Source of the DNA: Bryobacteraceae bacterium
Lineage (GTDB): Bacteria; Acidobacteriota; Terriglobia; Bryobacterales; Bryobacteraceae
Reading direction: 5' to 3'
DNA length: 36,028 bases
NCBI GenBank assembly: GCA_023511855.1
Contig: JAIMAR010000010.1
Location: forward strand, 1 to 36,028
In this document: positions 208 to 19,833 of the stretch, one piece after another
Position numbering within the stretch: position 1 is the stretch's first letter
Layout: the number at the start of each line of letters is the position of its first letter
Notes under the pieces: model-generated
Told to the model about the DNA's origin: nothing
What the model saw: only the letters and a program-made list of their open reading frames with translations
Databases searched by the model: none
Position numbers and translations under genes: made by a program

Positions 208-403
208 CTTGTGCCAACCCTAGCTCCGGTAGTTTAAGTTTCCAGGCTAGCGCTCAAACCTCGGCCCAACTCTGCCCGCCCATGACCCACACTGCCAACC
301 TGCGTTCCCGCACCAAACGCAATCCTTTTCGCGGCATCAGGAATTGAATGGTTGCGCCGGCCTGATGCTCCACGATGAAGCAGAGGTGCTGGTCCGCTTT
401 GGG

Positions 404-432
404 TTTTCAGCGGCACAGTCCTCTGATATGCT
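404..432 (+). promoter_or_regulatory. candidate sigma-70-like promoter of the first oxidoreductase gene
   Basis: TTTTCA at 404-409 and TATGCT at 427-432 are 17 bases apart, each matching four of six consensus positions. A start near 439 would give a leader of about 28 bases holding the AAGGAG ribosome binding site at 451-456. The call is based on pattern only. Confidence 0.35.
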
Positions 433-466
433 GAGTTTAGAATTGATCACAAGGAGCAAACCAGCG

Positions 467-1753
467 ATGCCCCAAGATCTGACCCGCAGGAGCTTTGTTT
501 GGACGGCGGCCGGAGCCGGATTCGTAGCCTCGCCCACAGCGCGCAGGGCTTTGGGCGCCAACGAAAAGATCACCATCGGATTCATCGGCGCCGGCGGCCG
601 CGGCTACTACCTAATGGAAAGGCTTTATAAGGGTGCCGGAGATCAAGTGCAGGTGCTGGCCGTCTGCGATACCTATGCCACGTGGCTGGCGCGCGGCGTG
701 GAACGAATCAAAACCATGGGCGGCAATACGCCCAAGGCGGTGGTGGACTATCGGGACATTTTGGCGGATCCCGCCATCGACGCGGTCTTCATTGCCACCC
801 CCGAGCACTTGCACCACATGCAGACCATGGATGCCATCAAGGCGCGCAAACACATCTACCTCGAAAAGCCAATCGCACACACCATCGAGGAAGGCGCCGA
901 GATCGTGAAGGCCGCCCAGAACTACGACCGCATCATCCAGGTGGGCACCCAGAACCGGAGCAACCCGCTCTACCAGAAGGCCAAGGAGATGGTGGACAGC
1001 GGCATGATCGGCGACGTCCACTACGTGCGCGCCTTCTGGTACCGGAATTTCCCAGACCGGTCCGGCAACCCCGCCGCCTGGCGCTATGTCATCCCCCCGG
1101 ACGCCAGCGAGCAGACCTGCGATTGGGCGCGCTTCCTTGGACCAGCGCCGAAGCGGCCCTTCGACAAGCGCCGCTACTTCCAGTGGAGGAACTACTGGGA
1201 CTATTCCGGCGGCATCTCCACCGATCTATTGGTGCACCAGACCGACATCGCCAACTACGTGCTCGGCAAAGCTGTCCCGATCGCCTGCATGGCCACCGGC
1301 GGCATTCTGGTATGGGGACCGCCCAACGACGACCGGGAGGTTCCCGACACCCTGAGCGCCATTTACAAGTACGCCGACGCCTTCCATCTCAACTACAGTT
1401 GCTTCTTCGGCAATGATCAGTACGGTTACGGCGAGCAGTTCCTGGGCTACGAGGGGACCATCGAGGTACTGAACCGCTCCGAGCTCCATTTCTATCCTCA
1501 GCAATTCGGCGGCAAACCGCCCGCGCGCGTGGCGGCGCGCAAGGAAATCCATGTCCGGGAGCCCATGGACAACACCAGCGTGGAGAACCACATCCGCAAC
1601 TGGCTGGATGCCATCCGCGGCAAGACCAAGCCGATCGCACCGGCCAGTGAAGGCCAGGTGGCCGCCATCCCCGGCCACATGGCGACCCTCTCCTACAAGC
1701 GCGGCCGGACCGTCCTTTGGGATGCGCGGACCCAGAAGTATCGCTTCGCGTAG
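467..1753 (+). CDS. Gfo/Idh/MocA family oxidoreductase, Tat-exported
   Basis: A 428-residue NAD(P)-dependent sugar or polyol oxidoreductase of the Gfo/Idh/MocA family, probably periplasmic. Residues 1-30 form a Tat signal with the twin arginine in TRRSFVW. A Rossmann fold follows, with the nucleotide loop GAGGRG at 41-46, the TPEHLHH stretch at 111-117 and the family hallmark EKP at 133-135. The C-terminal half is the substrate and oligomerisation domain. I chose the ATG at 467 because AAGGAG sits ten bases upstream and the Tat motif then falls at the N-terminus. The substrate cannot be read from sequence. A terminator hairpin separates it from the MFS gene, so co-transcription would need read-through. 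Confidence 0.93.
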   Translation: MPQDLTRRSFVWTAAGAGFVASPTARRALGANEKITIGFIGAGGRGYYLMERLYKGAGDQVQVLAVCDTYATWLARGVERIKTMGGNTPKAVVDYRDILADPAIDAVFIATPEHLHHMQTMDAIKARKHIYLEKPIAHTIEEGAEIVKAAQNYDRIIQVGTQNRSNPLYQKAKEMVDSGMIGDVHYVRAFWYRNFPDRSGNPAAWRYVIPPDASEQTCDWARFLGPAPKRPFDKRRYFQWRNYWDYSGGISTDLLVHQTDIANYVLGKAVPIACMATGGILVWGPPNDDREVPDTLSAIYKYADAFHLNYSCFFGNDQYGYGEQFLGYEGTIEVLNRSELHFYPQQFGGKPPARVAARKEIHVREPMDNTSVENHIRNWLDAIRGKTKPIAPASEGQVAAIPGHMATLSYKRGRTVLWDARTQKYRFA

Positions 1754-13180: not shown

Positions 13181-14752
13181 TCAGTGCGGGGCTGGGCCGC
13201 CCGAGGAGGGCCCCGCCTGATGCCGGTCCCACAGGCTCTTTGCGGCGTAGCCCCGGATTTCCACGCCCGGGCGCAAAAACACCGGCTCGTGGAAGATTCG
13301 CATATACAGCTCGCGTTTGCCCGCAGGTCGCGACTCGTAGAGCCAGGCCGCCACCGCAGGTTCCAGCTCTGCCGTAGATAGCACAACCGGCGCAGGCTCA
13401 GCCTTTGCCGGCGCTCCGGTCCACCACTGGAGGTTGGGCCAACGCCGCAAGTACCACGGCAGCGGCCAGGGATTCGTGTTGCTGATGATCTGCACGGACA
13501 TGGCCCGCCCGTCCTCGTGCGCCGAAGCCAGCCCTTCCAGGCGATCCCGGATCCGGAAAACATCCGGCGTGGTATGGGCATAGACCCACGGATTGCGCGG
13601 ATCGGCGGCGTAGCGAAATGCGGCCAGTTGCGACTGCCAGGCCAAGTGCGCGGTGGCAGCGGCGAGCAACACCCAAACCAGGGATGCGCGCCTGCCGCTG
13701 GTAGCCTCCAGCAGCCGCGCCGCGCCGCCTCCAGCCAGCAGGATCAAGGCGTAGTGGAAGCTGAGCAGGCACCAGGGCGTCTTGTAGGGGATCAGAGAGT
13801 AGAGGGTGGCCAACAGCGCCGCATACAACAGCAAGAAGCGCAGGAATGGCCGGCCGCTGCGCCACGCCGTCCACGCGCCTGCGGCGGCCAGCGCCAGGAT
13901 GGCCGCTTCCATAAAGGTCGGCCCCGCCCCATTCCGGAACCATAGGAGGAGGCCGAAGTAGTAGTGCCAGGGATGGCTGTGAGGTCCGGGCTCCAGCCCG
14001 CGCCCGAGATAGGTCGCGAAGTAGCTCCGTAGATAGTCCCAGGGGCCGGCTGGATTCTGGCCGAAAGAGGAGAGAAAAACAGAGGCCACGGCCACCCCCG
14101 CCAGCACGGCAACTCCAAGCTGAGAGAGCTTGATTTCCTTCCACCGCCCCGCCCAGGGAGTGAGCGCCGCCAGGGCGGAGGCCAGAGCCAGTACGGCGGT
14201 TTCTTTCGTCGCCGTCATCAGCCCCGCCGATGCGCCCGCCGCTACGGCCCACCCCAGAGCGCCTGAGCCGAGCCACCGCCAACCCGCCGCCAGAAACAGA
14301 GCGGTGAACAGGGCCAGCAGCATCTCCGGGATGAAATAGCGCGAGTAGTAGACAAACGAAGTCGAGACGGCCAGCAGCAAGGCAGCCCAACCGGCCGCGA
14401 TCCAACCCACGGCGGGCGCAAGCAGCAACGGTGTGGCCGCTAGCAGGATCCCGCCAACCGCCGGTGTGAAGCGGAGCAGGCTTTCGTCCAGGTCGGCGTA
14501 GCGTTTAACGCCCGCCAGCCGCGCTGGGATGAGTCCAAGGTACAACAGCGCAGGGCCGTGATAACCCTCCGGATCGTAGCGGTACTCGCCCTTTTCGAGC
14601 AGCGTCCCGAGTTTGTCGGCCAGCACCGCTTCGTCGGCGTGCATCGGCCGCTCGGCCAGGCCAGGCAGGCGCAAGGCCGCTGCCGCCAGCGCCGCCAGGC
14701 ACAGGAGCAGGGCGGCCCGCCGGCCGGCGCCCAGGGTGCTCAGGGGGCTCAT
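13181..14752 (-). CDS. Agl23-like (TIGR03663 type) polytopic membrane protein
   Basis: A 523-residue inner-membrane protein with about ten or more hydrophobic segments. The first luminal loop carries HADEA (38-42), the place where GT-C glycosyltransferases keep their acidic catalytic residue. YHGPALLY and the SRYFIPE stretch follow. This pattern fits the family named flippase activity-associated protein Agl23, related to GT39/GT83 lipid-linked sugar transferases. Sugar donor and acceptor are unknown. Its ATG overlaps the stop of the F5/8C gene as ATGA, so it is translationally coupled. It is the last gene of a five-gene operon otherwise devoted to exported sugar-related proteins. Confidence 0.75.
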   Translation of the reverse strand: MSPLSTLGAGRRAALLLCLAALAAAALRLPGLAERPMHADEAVLADKLGTLLEKGEYRYDPEGYHGPALLYLGLIPARLAGVKRYADLDESLLRFTPAVGGILLAATPLLLAPAVGWIAAGWAALLLAVSTSFVYYSRYFIPEMLLALFTALFLAAGWRWLGSGALGWAVAAGASAGLMTATKETAVLALASALAALTPWAGRWKEIKLSQLGVAVLAGVAVASVFLSSFGQNPAGPWDYLRSYFATYLGRGLEPGPHSHPWHYYFGLLLWFRNGAGPTFMEAAILALAAAGAWTAWRSGRPFLRFLLLYAALLATLYSLIPYKTPWCLLSFHYALILLAGGGAARLLEATSGRRASLVWVLLAAATAHLAWQSQLAAFRYAADPRNPWVYAHTTPDVFRIRDRLEGLASAHEDGRAMSVQIISNTNPWPLPWYLRRWPNLQWWTGAPAKAEPAPVVLSTAELEPAVAAWLYESRPAGKRELYMRIFHEPVFLRPGVEIRGYAAKSLWDRHQAGPSSGGPAPH

Positions 14753-15429
14753 TTCACCGGCTTGCCGAAGACCTCTACCTCCACATAATGATTGAGCTGG
14801 TTCGCGTGGTTCCCATTGCTGTACAGGCGCACGTAGCGCGCCTCTACGCCTTTGGCGTCGATCAGCTTGCCTTCGGCGGTCTCCACGTAGTTCAGCTCCT
14901 TGCCCACGCCCAGACCCGAGGTGTTGTCGTGGTCGTTATTGAACAAGGTCACGACGTTTTCCAGGAAGTCCGGGTCGTCGGCCGTGCGCACAATGACGTC
15001 GTTGTAAACGCGCGCCTGCTTATGATAGTGCCAGACCACGATCGCGTAGATGGTGTGGCGCGCGCCCAGGTCGATGGTGCAGTACTGGAGCCCGGGCCCG
15101 AGCTCGACGTAGGTGCCGTCCGTGCCGGCCTTCTCTCCGTCGGTCAGCATGTCCACGTCTCCAAGGGTGGGCGGCGGGCCGCTGCACTCCACCGGTTTGT
15201 GCAAGGCGACATTCATCGTACCGGCGGGCGCCAAGAACGGATCCCGCGGCCGCCCAAGCGGCTTCTCCAGGTTAGGGACCTTGATATTGACGGGCGTGCC
15301 TTCGAACAGAGGCTTGGGCAACACAATCGGGATCGGCTCCAGCCCGGCCTGGGACTGGCCCCAAGCGCAGGCGGCCCATCCTGAAAGGAGCAACAGGGGG
15401 ATTGCCAGAATCTGGGCAGATGTTCTCAT
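14749..15429 (-). CDS. exported protein with F5/8 type C (discoidin-like) domain
   Basis: A 226-residue secreted protein. A signal peptide (about 1-24, ending near AWG-QSQ) is followed by a linker. A jelly-roll discoidin-like domain covers about 75-225; it begins MNVALHKPVECSG and contains YCTIDLG, IVVWHYH and ARYVRLYSNG, as in domains that bind carbohydrate or other surfaces. No catalytic domain is attached, so it may act as a carbohydrate-binding partner. The start is four bases after the HEAT gene stop, and the end overlaps the Agl23-like gene. Binding specificity cannot be read. Confidence 0.75.
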   Translation of the reverse strand: MRTSAQILAIPLLLLSGWAACAWGQSQAGLEPIPIVLPKPLFEGTPVNIKVPNLEKPLGRPRDPFLAPAGTMNVALHKPVECSGPPPTLGDVDMLTDGEKAGTDGTYVELGPGLQYCTIDLGARHTIYAIVVWHYHKQARVYNDVIVRTADDPDFLENVVTLFNNDHDNTSGLGVGKELNYVETAEGKLIDAKGVEARYVRLYSNGNHANQLNHYVEVEVFGKPVK

Positions 15430-15433
15430 CTCT

Positions 15434-17374
15434 CTATTCCAACTTTAAAGCTTTGCGGATCGCTTCCACGGCCGCCTTGGCTTCCGCCGCCAGAGCCGGA
15501 TCCGCGACCGCGGCTTGCGCCAGCTCCAGCGACTCGGCACAGGGGAAACGCGGAAGCAAGCCCAAGATGGACTTCTTCTCCTCGGCTTGCGCCGCCAGCT
15601 TCAGGGCTTCGGCCAGCAGAGTTGCGGATGCCTCCGGGGTGCGGTCCGAGGGGAGGCCCGCCAGGCGAATGTAGCTGCGGAGGGCCAAGGTTCGGAGCGC
15701 GGGGCTGGAGTCTTTCCGAGCGGTTTCCAACAGATCCGGCATGGGCTCCGGCGCCGGCCATTGCCCCAGCGCTACGATTGCGGCCCGGCGCGTGGGGGCG
15801 TCGCTGGAGCGCAGCTCGCGTCGCAGCAGAGGCAGAAACTCCGGGCGGCCCGATTGGGCCATGACGGTCAGCAATGCCGCGCGCGGGTCGGGTTCTTTTG
15901 CCTTTTCATAAGCGGCCAGGAGCGGATCGGCTGAGGCCTTCTCCAGGCGCGGAAAAACTGCGGCGAGAGTCCGCTGGGCTTCGCGCAGATCGGCGGCCGA
16001 GAGCGGTTGAGCCACAAGTTCCGCCAGAGCGGGCAACTCTCGTTCGGTTGCCGTGGCGGACAGCGCCCGCAGCGCCTCCCGGCGAAGGGCGGCGTCTGGG
16101 TCCCACGCGGCGCGCAGAAGCGCGGTATTGGCCGCCGAGGCGCCGCGTTCCCCAGCCGCGCGCACCAGCTCGATCCGCGCTTTAGGCTCAGCGTGTGCCA
16201 TCGCCGCCACGATGGCCTCATCCACGCCGGGGCCAGGCAGGCTCACCAACGCGCGCCGGGCAGCCGCCGCCAGCGGTTCTTGCCCGGAAGCTGCGAGGTT
16301 GGAGAGGAAGGGCACGGCCGATCCGTCCCCGTGGCGCGCCAAGCCGTCCAAGGCGGCGAGCTGGACCTCCTCCGGCGGACGGCTTGCGGCTTCCATGAAC
16401 AGAGGTTTCAAGGATGCGTCGCCGTGCTCGGTCAATGCAGCCAGCACCTGCGCCTGCGCGCGGGAGCGGAGCCTCGGGAACTCTTCGCGAAGAATGGGAA
16501 TGCCCCGGCCGCGCTCCATGGAGGCCAAGGCCCAGACAGCGGCGGCTTGCAGGGTGGGATCCGTGCTCCGTAGGGCCGCCAGCAAGTCCGCCTGAGATCG
16601 CGCGGGATCCAGCCGCGCCATTTGTTTGAGGGCCGCAGCGCGGACCAGGCTGGAAGAGGCCTTGCCGTGGATGCGAACGTAAGATTCATAAGCGGCAAGG
16701 CGGCCGCCGGAAGCGGCGAGCTGGGCCGCACAGCGCAGGCGGGCTTCCCAGAACGAGTTTTCGAGCGTGCCCGGCTTGGGCGCCATGCGGTCCAGGGCGC
16801 GGCAGGCAGCGGCAGTGCCGGTCTGGGCCAGGGCCAGGATGGCGGCTGCGGCCACGGTTCCGTCCGGGCTTTGCGCCAGCTGTTGCAGCGCGGGGACGGC
16901 GGCGGCGTCACGCCGTGCGCCGAGGCTGTTGATCAGGCTGATTTGCAGCCCGCCTTCCGCCTTGGCCAAGGCATTGCGCAAGGCTTGGGATGCCGCCCGG
17001 CCTGGAATGCGCTCGAGCGCGTAGCGGGCCATCTCGGCCGTGGCCGGCGCGGCCAGAAGGCGTTCCAGCGCCGGCACGGACGCTTCGGTTCCGATCAGGC
17101 TCAGGCGGCGGCACGCTTCTTCGATGCCCGCCGGAGTTGCCTTGCCGCGGATCAGGCGGATCAACCGCCTCTCGAGTTCGGAGCGGAGAGCTGGACCGGC
17201 GGTTGGCTGCCGGAGCCACTCATCCAGCTTCGCCAGCGCCGAGCGGTCCGCGCCCGCCTGATACGCCGCCACCTGATTGAAGACCGCGTCCAGCTCGGCG
17301 GCCGAGGGCGGCGGGGCTGCCGAAGCGGTCCAGGTCAAACTCAGCGCGGTCAGCAGCAGAAGGATGGTACGCAT
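15434..17374 (-). CDS. exported HEAT-repeat protein
   Basis: A 646-residue alpha-helical solenoid. After a signal peptide (about 1-18, ending TASA) the whole chain consists of 30-35-residue helical repeats of HEAT/PBS-lyase type, such as AVPALQQLAQSPDGTVAAAA. Alanine and leucine dominate. No CxxCH heme motif and no enzyme domain are visible, which separates it from the HEAT-cytochrome fusions of Planctomycetes. It probably is a scaffold or binding protein in the periplasm. I chose the ATG at 17374, eight bases after the oxidoreductase stop and with GAGGCGG upstream. An ATG at 17395 would overlap that gene. It is the third gene of the ThuA operon. Confidence 0.85.
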   Translation of the reverse strand: MRTILLLLTALSLTWTASAAPPPSAAELDAVFNQVAAYQAGADRSALAKLDEWLRQPTAGPALRSELERRLIRLIRGKATPAGIEEACRRLSLIGTEASVPALERLLAAPATAEMARYALERIPGRAASQALRNALAKAEGGLQISLINSLGARRDAAAVPALQQLAQSPDGTVAAAAILALAQTGTAAACRALDRMAPKPGTLENSFWEARLRCAAQLAASGGRLAAYESYVRIHGKASSSLVRAAALKQMARLDPARSQADLLAALRSTDPTLQAAAVWALASMERGRGIPILREEFPRLRSRAQAQVLAALTEHGDASLKPLFMEAASRPPEEVQLAALDGLARHGDGSAVPFLSNLAASGQEPLAAAARRALVSLPGPGVDEAIVAAMAHAEPKARIELVRAAGERGASAANTALLRAAWDPDAALRREALRALSATATERELPALAELVAQPLSAADLREAQRTLAAVFPRLEKASADPLLAAYEKAKEPDPRAALLTVMAQSGRPEFLPLLRRELRSSDAPTRRAAIVALGQWPAPEPMPDLLETARKDSSPALRTLALRSYIRLAGLPSDRTPEASATLLAEALKLAAQAEEKKSILGLLPRFPCAESLELAQAAVADPALAAEAKAAVEAIRKALKLE

Positions 17375-17382
17375 AGGCCGCC

Positions 17383-18690
17383 TCAAAGATGCCATGGGCC
17401 GCGCAACGGCCGCGCGAGCAGGCGCGCCGCCTCCGGGTCGCCGAGGATCTCTTGTTTCGCCGGATCCCAGCGAATCTTCCGGCCCACCAGGATCGAAATC
17501 AGCCCCAGGTAGCCTGGGGTGGCCGAGCGCAGGGCGACATCGGGAGGCGAAATCGTCCGGCGGCGGGTGCGCACGCACTCCAGAAACTGGCGATAGTGGC
17601 CGGGGGAGATCTCCAGCCGCACACCATTCGGGGGGATGCGCGTCGCCAGCAGGCTCTTGGGACTGGCCTCCATGCCTCCGCGATCTACCCATAGCCAGCC
17701 CTCCTCGCCGATAAACTTCACGCCGCGGGGCGTCTTCTCGTCCTCGTTGACGATCAGCATCTCCACGCCGTCGGGATACTTCGCTCTCACACGGAAGGCG
17801 GAGGGCGCGTCCCAGACGCGGTTTGGCGAGACGAACTCGCCCGTGCCTTCGACTTCAACCGGGCCGGTGTGATCCAAGCCCAGGCCCCAGTGGGCCGTGT
17901 CCACGTGATGTCCCACCCAATCGAGCAGCATGCCGCCGCCGTAGTCGAGATTCCAGCGCCAGGTCTTGTGCACGCGGGCCGGGCAGTACGGAGCGCGGGG
18001 CGCGGGCCCCAACCAGCGTTCGTAGTCGAGGTGCGGCGGCGGAGGTGCGGGCTGATCGAGGTGGCCCAGATTATCGAAATCGGGCAGACCGGCGGGCAGG
18101 ACGACTTCCGCGCGGCGCACTTTGCCCAGCAGGCCGTTGCGCACGATTTCGCACGCCTGGCGGAAGCGAGGTTCCGAGCGCTGCCAGCTTCCGGTCTGCC
18201 ACACCCGGCCGTAGCGCTCGACGGCTTCCACAATGGCCCGCCCTTCAGCGAAGAACCGCGCCAGGGGCTTCTCGCCGTAAATGTCTTTGCCGGCGCGAGC
18301 GGCCGCCACCGAGGCCGCCCCGTGCCAGTGATCCGGCAGAGCCAGCATCACAGCGTCGATGTCCGGCCGCGCCAGCACATCTTCGAAGTTGTGATACGCC
18401 GCGCAGTCATGGTTGCCGTACTTTGTGTCGACGGCGGCCTTGGCTTCCTCCAAGTGCTGCCGGTCGACGTCGCACACGGCCACGACCTGGGCGGAGGGCT
18501 CGTCGAGGAAGCTGTTGACGTTGTTCATGCCCATCCACCCCGTGCCGATGCAAGCGATCGTGATCCGGCTGCTGGGCGGCACGGCGCCGCCCAGCCCCAA
18601 GGCCGATGCGCGCACCACCATGGGGGCGGCGGCGCCCATCAGGGCTTGCTTCAGAATTCTCCTCCGGGAGAGTTGCCTGCCCGCCTGCAT
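17383..18690 (-). CDS. Gfo/Idh/MocA family oxidoreductase, Tat-exported
   Basis: A 435-residue NAD(P)-dependent oxidoreductase. The N-terminus is a Tat signal with SRRRILKQA at 8-16. The nucleotide-binding loop is GTGWMG (49-54), the LPDHWHG stretch is at 119-124 and the family EKP motif at 140-142. The C-terminal domain has YGGGMLLDWVGHH, conserved in exported acidobacterial and planctomycete members. It differs clearly from the homologue at 467-1753 and is not a recent duplicate. It starts seven bases after the ThuA stop. Pairing with ThuA suggests oxidation of a glucoside or related sugar in the periplasm; 3-keto-sugar chemistry is one candidate, but this is inference. Confidence 0.93.
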   Translation of the reverse strand: MQAGRQLSRRRILKQALMGAAAPMVVRASALGLGGAVPPSSRITIACIGTGWMGMNNVNSFLDEPSAQVVAVCDVDRQHLEEAKAAVDTKYGNHDCAAYHNFEDVLARPDIDAVMLALPDHWHGAASVAAARAGKDIYGEKPLARFFAEGRAIVEAVERYGRVWQTGSWQRSEPRFRQACEIVRNGLLGKVRRAEVVLPAGLPDFDNLGHLDQPAPPPPHLDYERWLGPAPRAPYCPARVHKTWRWNLDYGGGMLLDWVGHHVDTAHWGLGLDHTGPVEVEGTGEFVSPNRVWDAPSAFRVRAKYPDGVEMLIVNEDEKTPRGVKFIGEEGWLWVDRGGMEASPKSLLATRIPPNGVRLEISPGHYRQFLECVRTRRRTISPPDVALRSATPGYLGLISILVGRKIRWDPAKQEILGDPEAARLLARPLRGPWHL

Positions 18691-18697
18691 CGCCCGG

Positions 18698-19663
18698 CTA
18701 CCTTTTCTTCAGCTTTGCACTCGGGGTGTCGTCGGCTTTCAGATCCCCCAAAGCGTACTGAATTCCGGCCAGGAAGTGCCGGAGGAGCTTGGGATCTTGA
18801 AAGACTTCGGGAGTGTGTCCCAAAGCATTGTAGAAGACCCGGCCGCGGCCGTAGCGCTTGACCCAGGCAATGCCGAAATCCTTGTCGGCGGCGCGCTCGG
18901 GCAGGAAGCGGCGCTTGGGATCCATGTCCGTCTTGTCCGTATCGACGCTCAGAAGGATCCGCAGGCGCTCGCGGGAGTAGCCGTGGCGGAACTGGAAGAT
19001 CTGGTCCCGGATTTGAAAGCTCTTTCCGCCGAACGCGGCCACAACGGGATGGGACGGGTCCTCGACTTTGATGGTGACCAGGTCCTTCTCGCGCCAGGGG
19101 TGGCCGCCGTCTTCGTATGCGCCGAACATCTCGCCGAACTCGGGGAACTGATCATAGCGCGGATACTGCACGAAGCTAGCGCCGCCTCCGCCGTGGAAGC
19201 CGACGAAGCCTCGGCCGCTGCGGACAAAATCCTGTAGCGAGCGGCGCAGTTCCGGATCTTCGGTCGGCACGCCCTCGGCGTTATTAAAACAAATTGCGTC
19301 GAATTTGGTTAGGTTCTCCCACCGCCACAGGTTGAGATCGTTGCTAAAGACCGCCTCGTAAGCGCCCGTGCGCTTGCCCATCTGCTCCAGGGCGTAGTTG
19401 GCGACCGGGATCGTCTTGGGATGGTTGCCCGGATAAGGTTTGCCGTCGCGCACGTTGAGGGTGAACACCAGCATCCGGCGCGGCTGTTTGGGCTTGGACG
19501 GGGCTTTGGCGGGCACGGCAGCGTCGACCTTTAGCCGTGTTTCGGGATCGAGGGTTTGGGCGTAGACGGTGGCGCCGCAAAAGCTCAAGGTGAGTAGGGC
19601 GAGAAGTGAAATCGTTAATCGTTTGTGTTTTGAGGTACTGAATGAACCGCGGAAAAGAGTCAT
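18698..19663 (-). CDS. exported ThuA domain protein
   Basis: A 321-residue protein with a signal peptide (about 1-36, ending VYA-QTL). The ThuA domain, a class I glutamine-amidotransferase-like fold, covers about 60-305. Hallmarks are FNNAEG, the loop GFVGFHGGGGASF and GRGRVFYNALGHTPEV near the end. ThuA was named from trehalose utilisation in rhizobia; the chemistry of exported homologues is not settled. I chose the ATG at 19663, which has GGAG ten bases upstream; a frame extended to 19696 has no such site. It leads the operon ThuA, Gfo/Idh, HEAT, F5/8C, Agl23-like. Confidence 0.9.
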   Translation of the reverse strand: MTLFRGSFSTSKHKRLTISLLALLTLSFCGATVYAQTLDPETRLKVDAAVPAKAPSKPKQPRRMLVFTLNVRDGKPYPGNHPKTIPVANYALEQMGKRTGAYEAVFSNDLNLWRWENLTKFDAICFNNAEGVPTEDPELRRSLQDFVRSGRGFVGFHGGGGASFVQYPRYDQFPEFGEMFGAYEDGGHPWREKDLVTIKVEDPSHPVVAAFGGKSFQIRDQIFQFRHGYSRERLRILLSVDTDKTDMDPKRRFLPERAADKDFGIAWVKRYGRGRVFYNALGHTPEVFQDPKLLRHFLAGIQYALGDLKADDTPSAKLKKR

Positions 19664-19792: not shown

Positions 19793-19833
19793 AAAAAACG
19801 GGCCCGCCGGTGATGAACCGGTGCGGGCCCGTT
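19793..19833 (-). terminator. strong terminator of the TonB receptor gene
   Basis: Read on the minus strand, AACGGGCCCG pairs with CGGGCCCGTT around an inner ACCGG/CCGG helix and a small loop, followed by TTTTTT (the A-run at 19793-19798 on the plus strand). It begins 25 bases after the receptor stop. It separates the receptor from the ThuA operon. Confidence 0.85.

Follow-up and report, generated by a model that had tools for sequence, protein, structure and literature searches.

AftD and EmbB of mycobacteria are arabinosyltransferases of the GT-C superfamily that carry carbohydrate-binding modules. Another branch of the superfamily is covered by the model TIGR03663, named for the flippase-associated Agl23; archaeal Agl23 from Haloarcula was reported to be a flippase and moved lipid-linked oligosaccharide in liposomes (PMC11182771). 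Sugar oxidation outside the cytoplasm is represented by the periplasmic 3-keto-glycoside pathway (Caulobacter LacABC-DUF1080; Bacteroides BT2157-BT2159), where PF06439 (DUF1080) proteins of Caulobacter were proposed to be periplasmic 3-keto-glycoside hydrolases (PMC9007349). Here we describe a locus of Bryobacteraceae bacterium (assembly GCA_023511855.1) that appears to connect both kinds of system. It lies in a stretch of 36,028 nucleotides (contig JAIMAR010000010.1, our contig C2, hereafter the window) belonging to a 4.1 Mb genome of a soil-type bacterium, 96.6% complete. Five genes of the window, for a ThuA-family protein, a Gfo/Idh oxidoreductase, a HEAT-repeat protein, an F5/8C-like protein (working name F58) and an Agl23-like membrane protein (hereafter the GT-C), form an operon as judged by their layout: they share one strand with intergenic gaps of 7, 8 and 4 bases and a final ATGA overlap, exactly as given in the preliminary description of this DNA.

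The exact five-gene set is local, but at its end stand two genes that form the core of a much wider unit, one that exists in many phyla without ThuA or HEAT. Homologous loci (designated by L-numbers) were fetched and gene families were mapped on them by family profiles. The Agl23-like gene lies directly downstream of F58 in 61 of the 84 places with enough downstream DNA, and 41 of 63 pairs share the ATGA-type tetranucleotide overlap. The pair was found in at least seven bacterial phyla, the taxa being labelled Acidobacteriota (including Aminicenantes and Vicinamibacteria), Planctomycetota, candidate division KSB1, Bacteroidetes, Ignavibacteriae, Calditrichia and Sumerlaeota. Among 396 genomes of Acidobacteriota F58 is present in 31, all of which encode the GT-C, in 29 cases directly downstream on the same strand (Fisher p 1.2e-23); among 294 genomes of Planctomycetota (the phylum of L049, a Sedimentisphaerales record) F58 is present in 20 and the GT-C in 19 of these (p 1.1e-21), although the Fisher values of this work (1e-21 to 1e-25) overstate the significance because genomes are not independent samples. 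In the twentieth genome F58 is a fragment at a contig end. The scores of the GT-C in Planctomycetota are bimodal: all matches beyond E 1e-140 belong to F58 genomes, and ten others, most of them near 1e-105, to genomes without F58. Nearly all records are metagenome-assembled and single contigs may be misbinned, but the association repeats in two phyla and misbinning cannot explain a recurring pattern. The tree distances of F58 and the GT-C correlate with r 0.73 (permutation maximum 0.17).

The preliminary description assigned all five families; ThuA, Gfo/Idh, HEAT and Agl23 exceed their cut-offs, but F58 stays below those of the Pfam F5/8C models (PF22633, 22.5 of 27.8 bits; PF00754, 16.1 of 28.2 bits), so that a CBM32 fold is claimed for it and Pfam membership is not. 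Its predicted model (pLDDT, predicted local distance difference test, 89.7) is a CBM32-type beta-sandwich that matches CBM32-type domains with VIA Z of 13-18, among them a chitosan-binding module (Z 15.5) and the RgGH98 domain (Z 17.8). Most of these matches leave the residues before ~70 uncovered. This part contains a conserved extension of about 35 residues (consensus LPKPMFVGTPxNxxVPNLEKPLGKPRPPFLAPxG) preceding the beta-sandwich. In contrast to common CBM32 modules, F58 is a stand-alone secreted protein with this extension and no appended hydrolase, 47-73% identical to its homologues across phyla and with 17 positions invariant in 68 sequences. His134, His136, Arg198 and Asn213 belong to its invariant or near-invariant residues. 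A scan of one genome per species gave at least 94 encoded relatives of F58, of which the 80 best show roughly 49-78% identity. Within the order to which the window belongs, only 7 of 200 genomes carry F58.

F58 relatives without an adjoining GT-C come also from taxa labelled Hydrogenedentota, Kiritimatiellae and Verrucomicrobia. At five loci of Sedimentisphaerales and other Planctomycetota (L053, L055, L058, L065, L105) such relatives, often in tandem with up to three copies, have a membrane-anchor-like N-terminus and adjoin genes of extracytoplasmic function (ECF) sigma factors and sulfatases, which possibly reflects a sensing use of the same fold. In Thermoguttaceae/Planctomycetota (L072, L075, L081) another conserved gene set (clusters c29-c32) surrounds F58, and the GT-C gene is located several kb away on the opposite strand.

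The GT-C scores 150.4 bits with TIGR03663 (cut-off 126.25), and no other copy in the genome exceeds the cut-off. The predicted model (pLDDT 93.9) has the GT-C membrane fold. The best full-length match is ArnT with undecaprenyl phosphate (5f15; Z 31.4, root-mean-square deviation 3.8, 442 residues aligned), followed by oligosaccharyltransferases (OST), PMT, ALG12 and AftD, with EmbB also present; a search of solved structures at the sequence level gave no meaningful relative. The Asp-Glu pair D40-E41 is situated in the first outer loop and corresponds to the acidic DE motif of GT-C enzymes, which we take to be catalytic. Like this pair, H65-G66 and a number of Arg, Lys and Trp residues do not vary in the alignment. 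The protein thus looks like an ArnT-like glycan-building glycosyltransferase, in line with the link to glycan building suggested earlier. It differs from the known members of the ArnT/TIGR03663 branch in having F58 as a near-constant neighbour, in forming a high-scoring subfamily separate from the F58-less relatives, and in its surroundings, where exported oxidoreductases take the place of lipid A or N-glycan genes. With AftD and EmbB it has in common the combination of a GT-C core and a carbohydrate-binding beta-sandwich, but here the binding module is a separate secreted protein and an arabinogalactan role is not suggested. The F58-less relatives from Planctomycetota (L125-L127) are proteins of ~670 residues with a C-terminal PA14 domain (54-64 bits in two tested), and a GT2 gene converges on the end of each. 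This branch of GT-C is consequently coupled to a domain of carbohydrate-binding type in cis or in trans and to a probable donor synthase. In 26 of 64 complete loci a GT2 of the same family comes after the F58-GT-C pair; it is DPM/ArnC-like by phmmer, its nearest solved relatives being dolichol-phosphate mannose synthase and ArnC, and the genome of the window encodes a GT2 of this kind (35% identity) on another contig. Judging from fold, conserved residues and genomic coupling, F58 and the GT-C most likely act as a complex in glycosyl transfer.

The first three genes of the operon point to sugar oxidation, and in the homologous loci DUF1080, ThuA and Gfo/Idh genes likewise occur near the pair. 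The Gfo/Idh protein (GFO_IDH_MocA_C2, 108 bits) has the dehydrogenase chains 8tdf and 8tdh as nearest solved relatives, and its best partial NCBIfam match is the glycoside 3-dehydrogenase NF058561 of the BT_2158 family (136 bits, cut-off 750). Inspection of the N-termini by eye agrees with the proposed export of the first four products, with Sec signals in ThuA, HEAT and F58 and the twin-arginine stretch SRRRILK in Gfo/Idh, but the Pfam TAT model gives no score for the window Gfo/Idh at E<=0.1. In L043 and L056 the relatives of the HEAT protein carry PF06439, the 3-keto-disaccharide hydrolase domain, as a C-terminal fusion, which connects HEAT, and with it the adjacent Gfo/Idh, with 3-keto sugar chemistry. 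HEAT adjoins F58 or is one gene away in six of seven related genomes. In five same-family relatives (L024, L025, L026, L035 and L036, whose contig begins in HEAT) the pair or F58 alone comes after Gfo/Idh and HEAT, and in L025 and L026 a ThuA-domain protein is inserted between HEAT and F58 (domain tested in L026). The closest own-genome paralogue of the window ThuA is 59% identical and lies in L030. A putative exported sugar dehydrogenase together with a DUF1080-type partner in related clusters resembles the periplasmic 3-keto-glycoside pathway. Unlike this pathway, the related clusters combine Gfo/Idh with a seven-heme cytochrome and b561 or with DoxX and link it to GT-C, carbohydrate-binding module and ApbE; PF06439 is absent from the window operon, which has ThuA and HEAT instead.

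In other genomes the pair is embedded in a recurring cluster, as seen with the profiles over all loci: a Tat-type Gfo/Idh, a cytochrome with seven CxxCH motifs and a C-terminal anchor, a b561-type protein, F58, GT-C and ApbE, with GT2 on the opposite strand and, in some cases, an NCS1 permease and additional Gfo/Idh genes. The same-family member L027 has this cytochrome-ApbE version. DoxX takes the place of the cytochrome in L038, L042, L051, L059, L062 and L094. In L027 (4363-6729) and L113 (6119-8845) the seven-heme cytochrome is fused to a b-type membrane module, which supports a route for electrons by way of cytochrome and b561 in the other clusters. F58 is encoded by 18 of the 19 Planctomycetota genomes with the seven-heme cytochrome (p 1.4e-25), and comparison of the distance matrices among F58, GT-C, ApbE, cytochrome and GT2 gives correlations of 0.73-0.94, values that include shared species history and do not by themselves prove interaction. 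Beside the cytochrome in Aminicenantes, a membrane-like protein of 235 residues with no Pfam match (L071:8165-8869, cluster c28) replaces b561. ApbE next to the pair, for instance in L049 (12249-13226), has no signal peptide recognisable by eye, and the cluster contains no obvious flavinylation target.

We propose, with a probability of about 50%, that F58 and the GT-C work as an extracytoplasmic glycosyltransferase whose binding module is supplied in trans, and that they are co-expressed with exported proteins for sugar oxidation, probably by 3-keto chemistry. A GT2 encoded elsewhere would charge polyprenyl phosphate with a hexose, and the GT-C would move it to an acceptor glycan outside the membrane, held in trans by F58. 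The exported Gfo/Idh, aided by ThuA and HEAT, would oxidise or remodel sugars of the same glycan, probably through 3-keto intermediates. In most other phyla the electrons from the exported Gfo/Idh would leave via the seven-heme cytochrome and b561, or via DoxX. The link to oxidation is the weaker part of the proposal; C3 oxidation, the electron route, the action of both activities on one glycan, its identity as the substrate and the direction (building, not breaking) are tentatively assigned.

Several observations weigh against this proposal. The pair is separated or reordered in L024, L027 and L042, and copies of F58 without GT-C exist beside sulfatase and ECF sigma genes. Gfo/Idh lies below the glycoside 3-dehydrogenase cut-off, and we claim only that it works like such an enzyme. 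In the genome of the window the seven-heme cytochrome is represented only by a fragment match of 21.8 bits, and ApbE and the GT2 candidate are on other contigs, so that the redox link is not established for this organism. Motifs for flavinylation by ApbE in the clustered proteins are matched only at chance level; F58 as its target is thus not supported and the presence of ApbE is left unexplained. Finally, the nearest named relative of the GT-C is the reported flippase Agl23.

The strongest rival, which we nevertheless consider rather unlikely, is a catabolic one: Gfo/Idh, ThuA, HEAT and DUF1080 would break glycosides via 3-keto intermediates outside the membrane, F58 would bind the substrate, and the GT-C as an accessory would cap, trap or import a sugar on lipid. 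It is consistent with the hydrolase role proposed for DUF1080, with the occurrence of HEAT-PF06439 fusions, DUF1080 and transporters in the clusters, and with the sulfatases near some F58 copies. But F58 is kept most constantly together with the GT-C and not with a hydrolase, and the adjoining GT2 suggests supply of a lipid-linked donor. Our proposal of a glycan-building pair is also separable from a more far-reaching one, that of a respiratory system in which Gfo/Idh oxidises a polyprenyl-derived glycan built by the pair and electrons pass via a flavinylated carrier and the seven-heme cytochrome/b561 or DoxX to the quinone pool. We regard it as unlikely in general, and a complete respiratory module is unlikely in the window genome, given its completeness and the lack of a cytochrome beyond the fragment.

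It is improbable that the GT-C glycosylates exported redox proteins (Gfo/Idh or the cytochrome) with F58 aiding presentation, so that oxidation and glycosylation would concern different substrates. The resemblance of the fold to the protein glycosyltransferases OST and PMT and the covarying trees of the pair, cytochrome and ApbE agree with this, but the cytochrome is missing from the DoxX-type clusters and from the window genome, and no common acceptor protein is evident. More improbable still is a flippase for polyprenyl-linked sugar that F58 would receive outside: the name of TIGR03663 and the activity of archaeal Agl23 speak for it, whereas the whole model, including the soluble domain, superposes on the transferase ArnT and the DE motif is invariant. 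That the sugar genes came together by ordinary chance was set aside as very improbable. The abundance of ThuA (10 matches) and Gfo/Idh paralogues in the genome and the exact five-gene order, seen here only among the fetched loci, would agree with it, but the position of HEAT near F58 in related genomes speaks against it, and for the pair it is contradicted by recurrence in two independently sampled phyla.

A periplasmic sugar-modifying complex, with HEAT as a putative scaffold and F5/8C as binding module, had been suggested from the letters alone. The suggestion is partly supported by the connection of HEAT with sugar-keto chemistry and by the carbohydrate-binding fold of F58, but the important unit is the F58-GT-C pair with its redox neighbourhood and not the five-gene set, and F58 is partnered with the GT-C instead of being a free module of a catabolic complex. 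Uniqueness to this genome holds for the contiguous five-gene order, which no other fetched locus has; the pairs Gfo-HEAT, HEAT-F58 and F58-Agl23 recur. As the preliminary description had supposed, the open papers yielded no description of a system with this set, nor was TIGR03663/Agl23 described there with Gfo/Idh, cytochromes, discoidin or ThuA (most subscription journals were outside the search). Conservation of F58 in no fewer than seven phyla, in most cases next to a single GT-C, marks a strongly selected, unnamed machine. For the bacterial TIGR03663 branch this supplies a partner and a role open to testing, and for the many HEAT and ThuA proteins in Acidobacteriota and Planctomycetota a functional hook. 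Lipid-dependent glycosylation, usually regarded as a subject apart from sugar oxidation by exported enzymes and from multiheme electron transfer, would be linked with both; if the respiratory version were true, glycan assembly and respiration would be joined outside the membrane in a widespread undescribed system.

Table 1. Features of the operon and its upstream border, in window coordinates.
Feature	Position	Strand	Basis
ThuA-family protein, 321 aa, Sec-type signal	18698..19663	-	PF06283, 120 bits
Gfo/Idh/MocA oxidoreductase, 435 aa, twin-arginine-like N-terminus SRRRILK	17383..18690	-	PF01408 and PF19051 above cut-off
HEAT-repeat protein, 646 aa, Sec-type signal	15434..17374	-	HEAT_2, 5 stretches, 125 bits
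F58, secreted CBM32/F5-8C-fold protein, 226 aa, putative partner of GT-C	14749..15429	-	predicted model, fold comparison, homologue alignment
F58 conserved N-terminal extension, residues 37-70, outside the CBM32 fold	15220..15321	-	alignment A1
Agl23-like putative GT-C membrane glycosyltransferase, 523 aa	13181..14752	-	TIGR03663, predicted model, ArnT fold match
Asp40-Glu41 of GT-C	14630..14635	-	invariant in 51 sequences
ATGA stop-start overlap, F58 to GT-C gene	14749..14752	-	sequence; same type in 41/63 pairs, many phyla
Predicted terminator hairpin of the upstream TonB-receptor gene	19797..19833	-	-27.4 kcal/mol, z -4.6, followed by T-run

The promoter scan gave no match above chance. The strong terminator closing the upstream TonB-receptor gene implies that the operon starts only after this hairpin. 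A gene for an Rrf2-like regulator, identified by eye, lies downstream of the operon. A second Gfo/Idh gene of the window (344-1753, plus strand), about 11 kb from the operon, has its relatives among the exported Gfo/Idh genes of the wider clusters.

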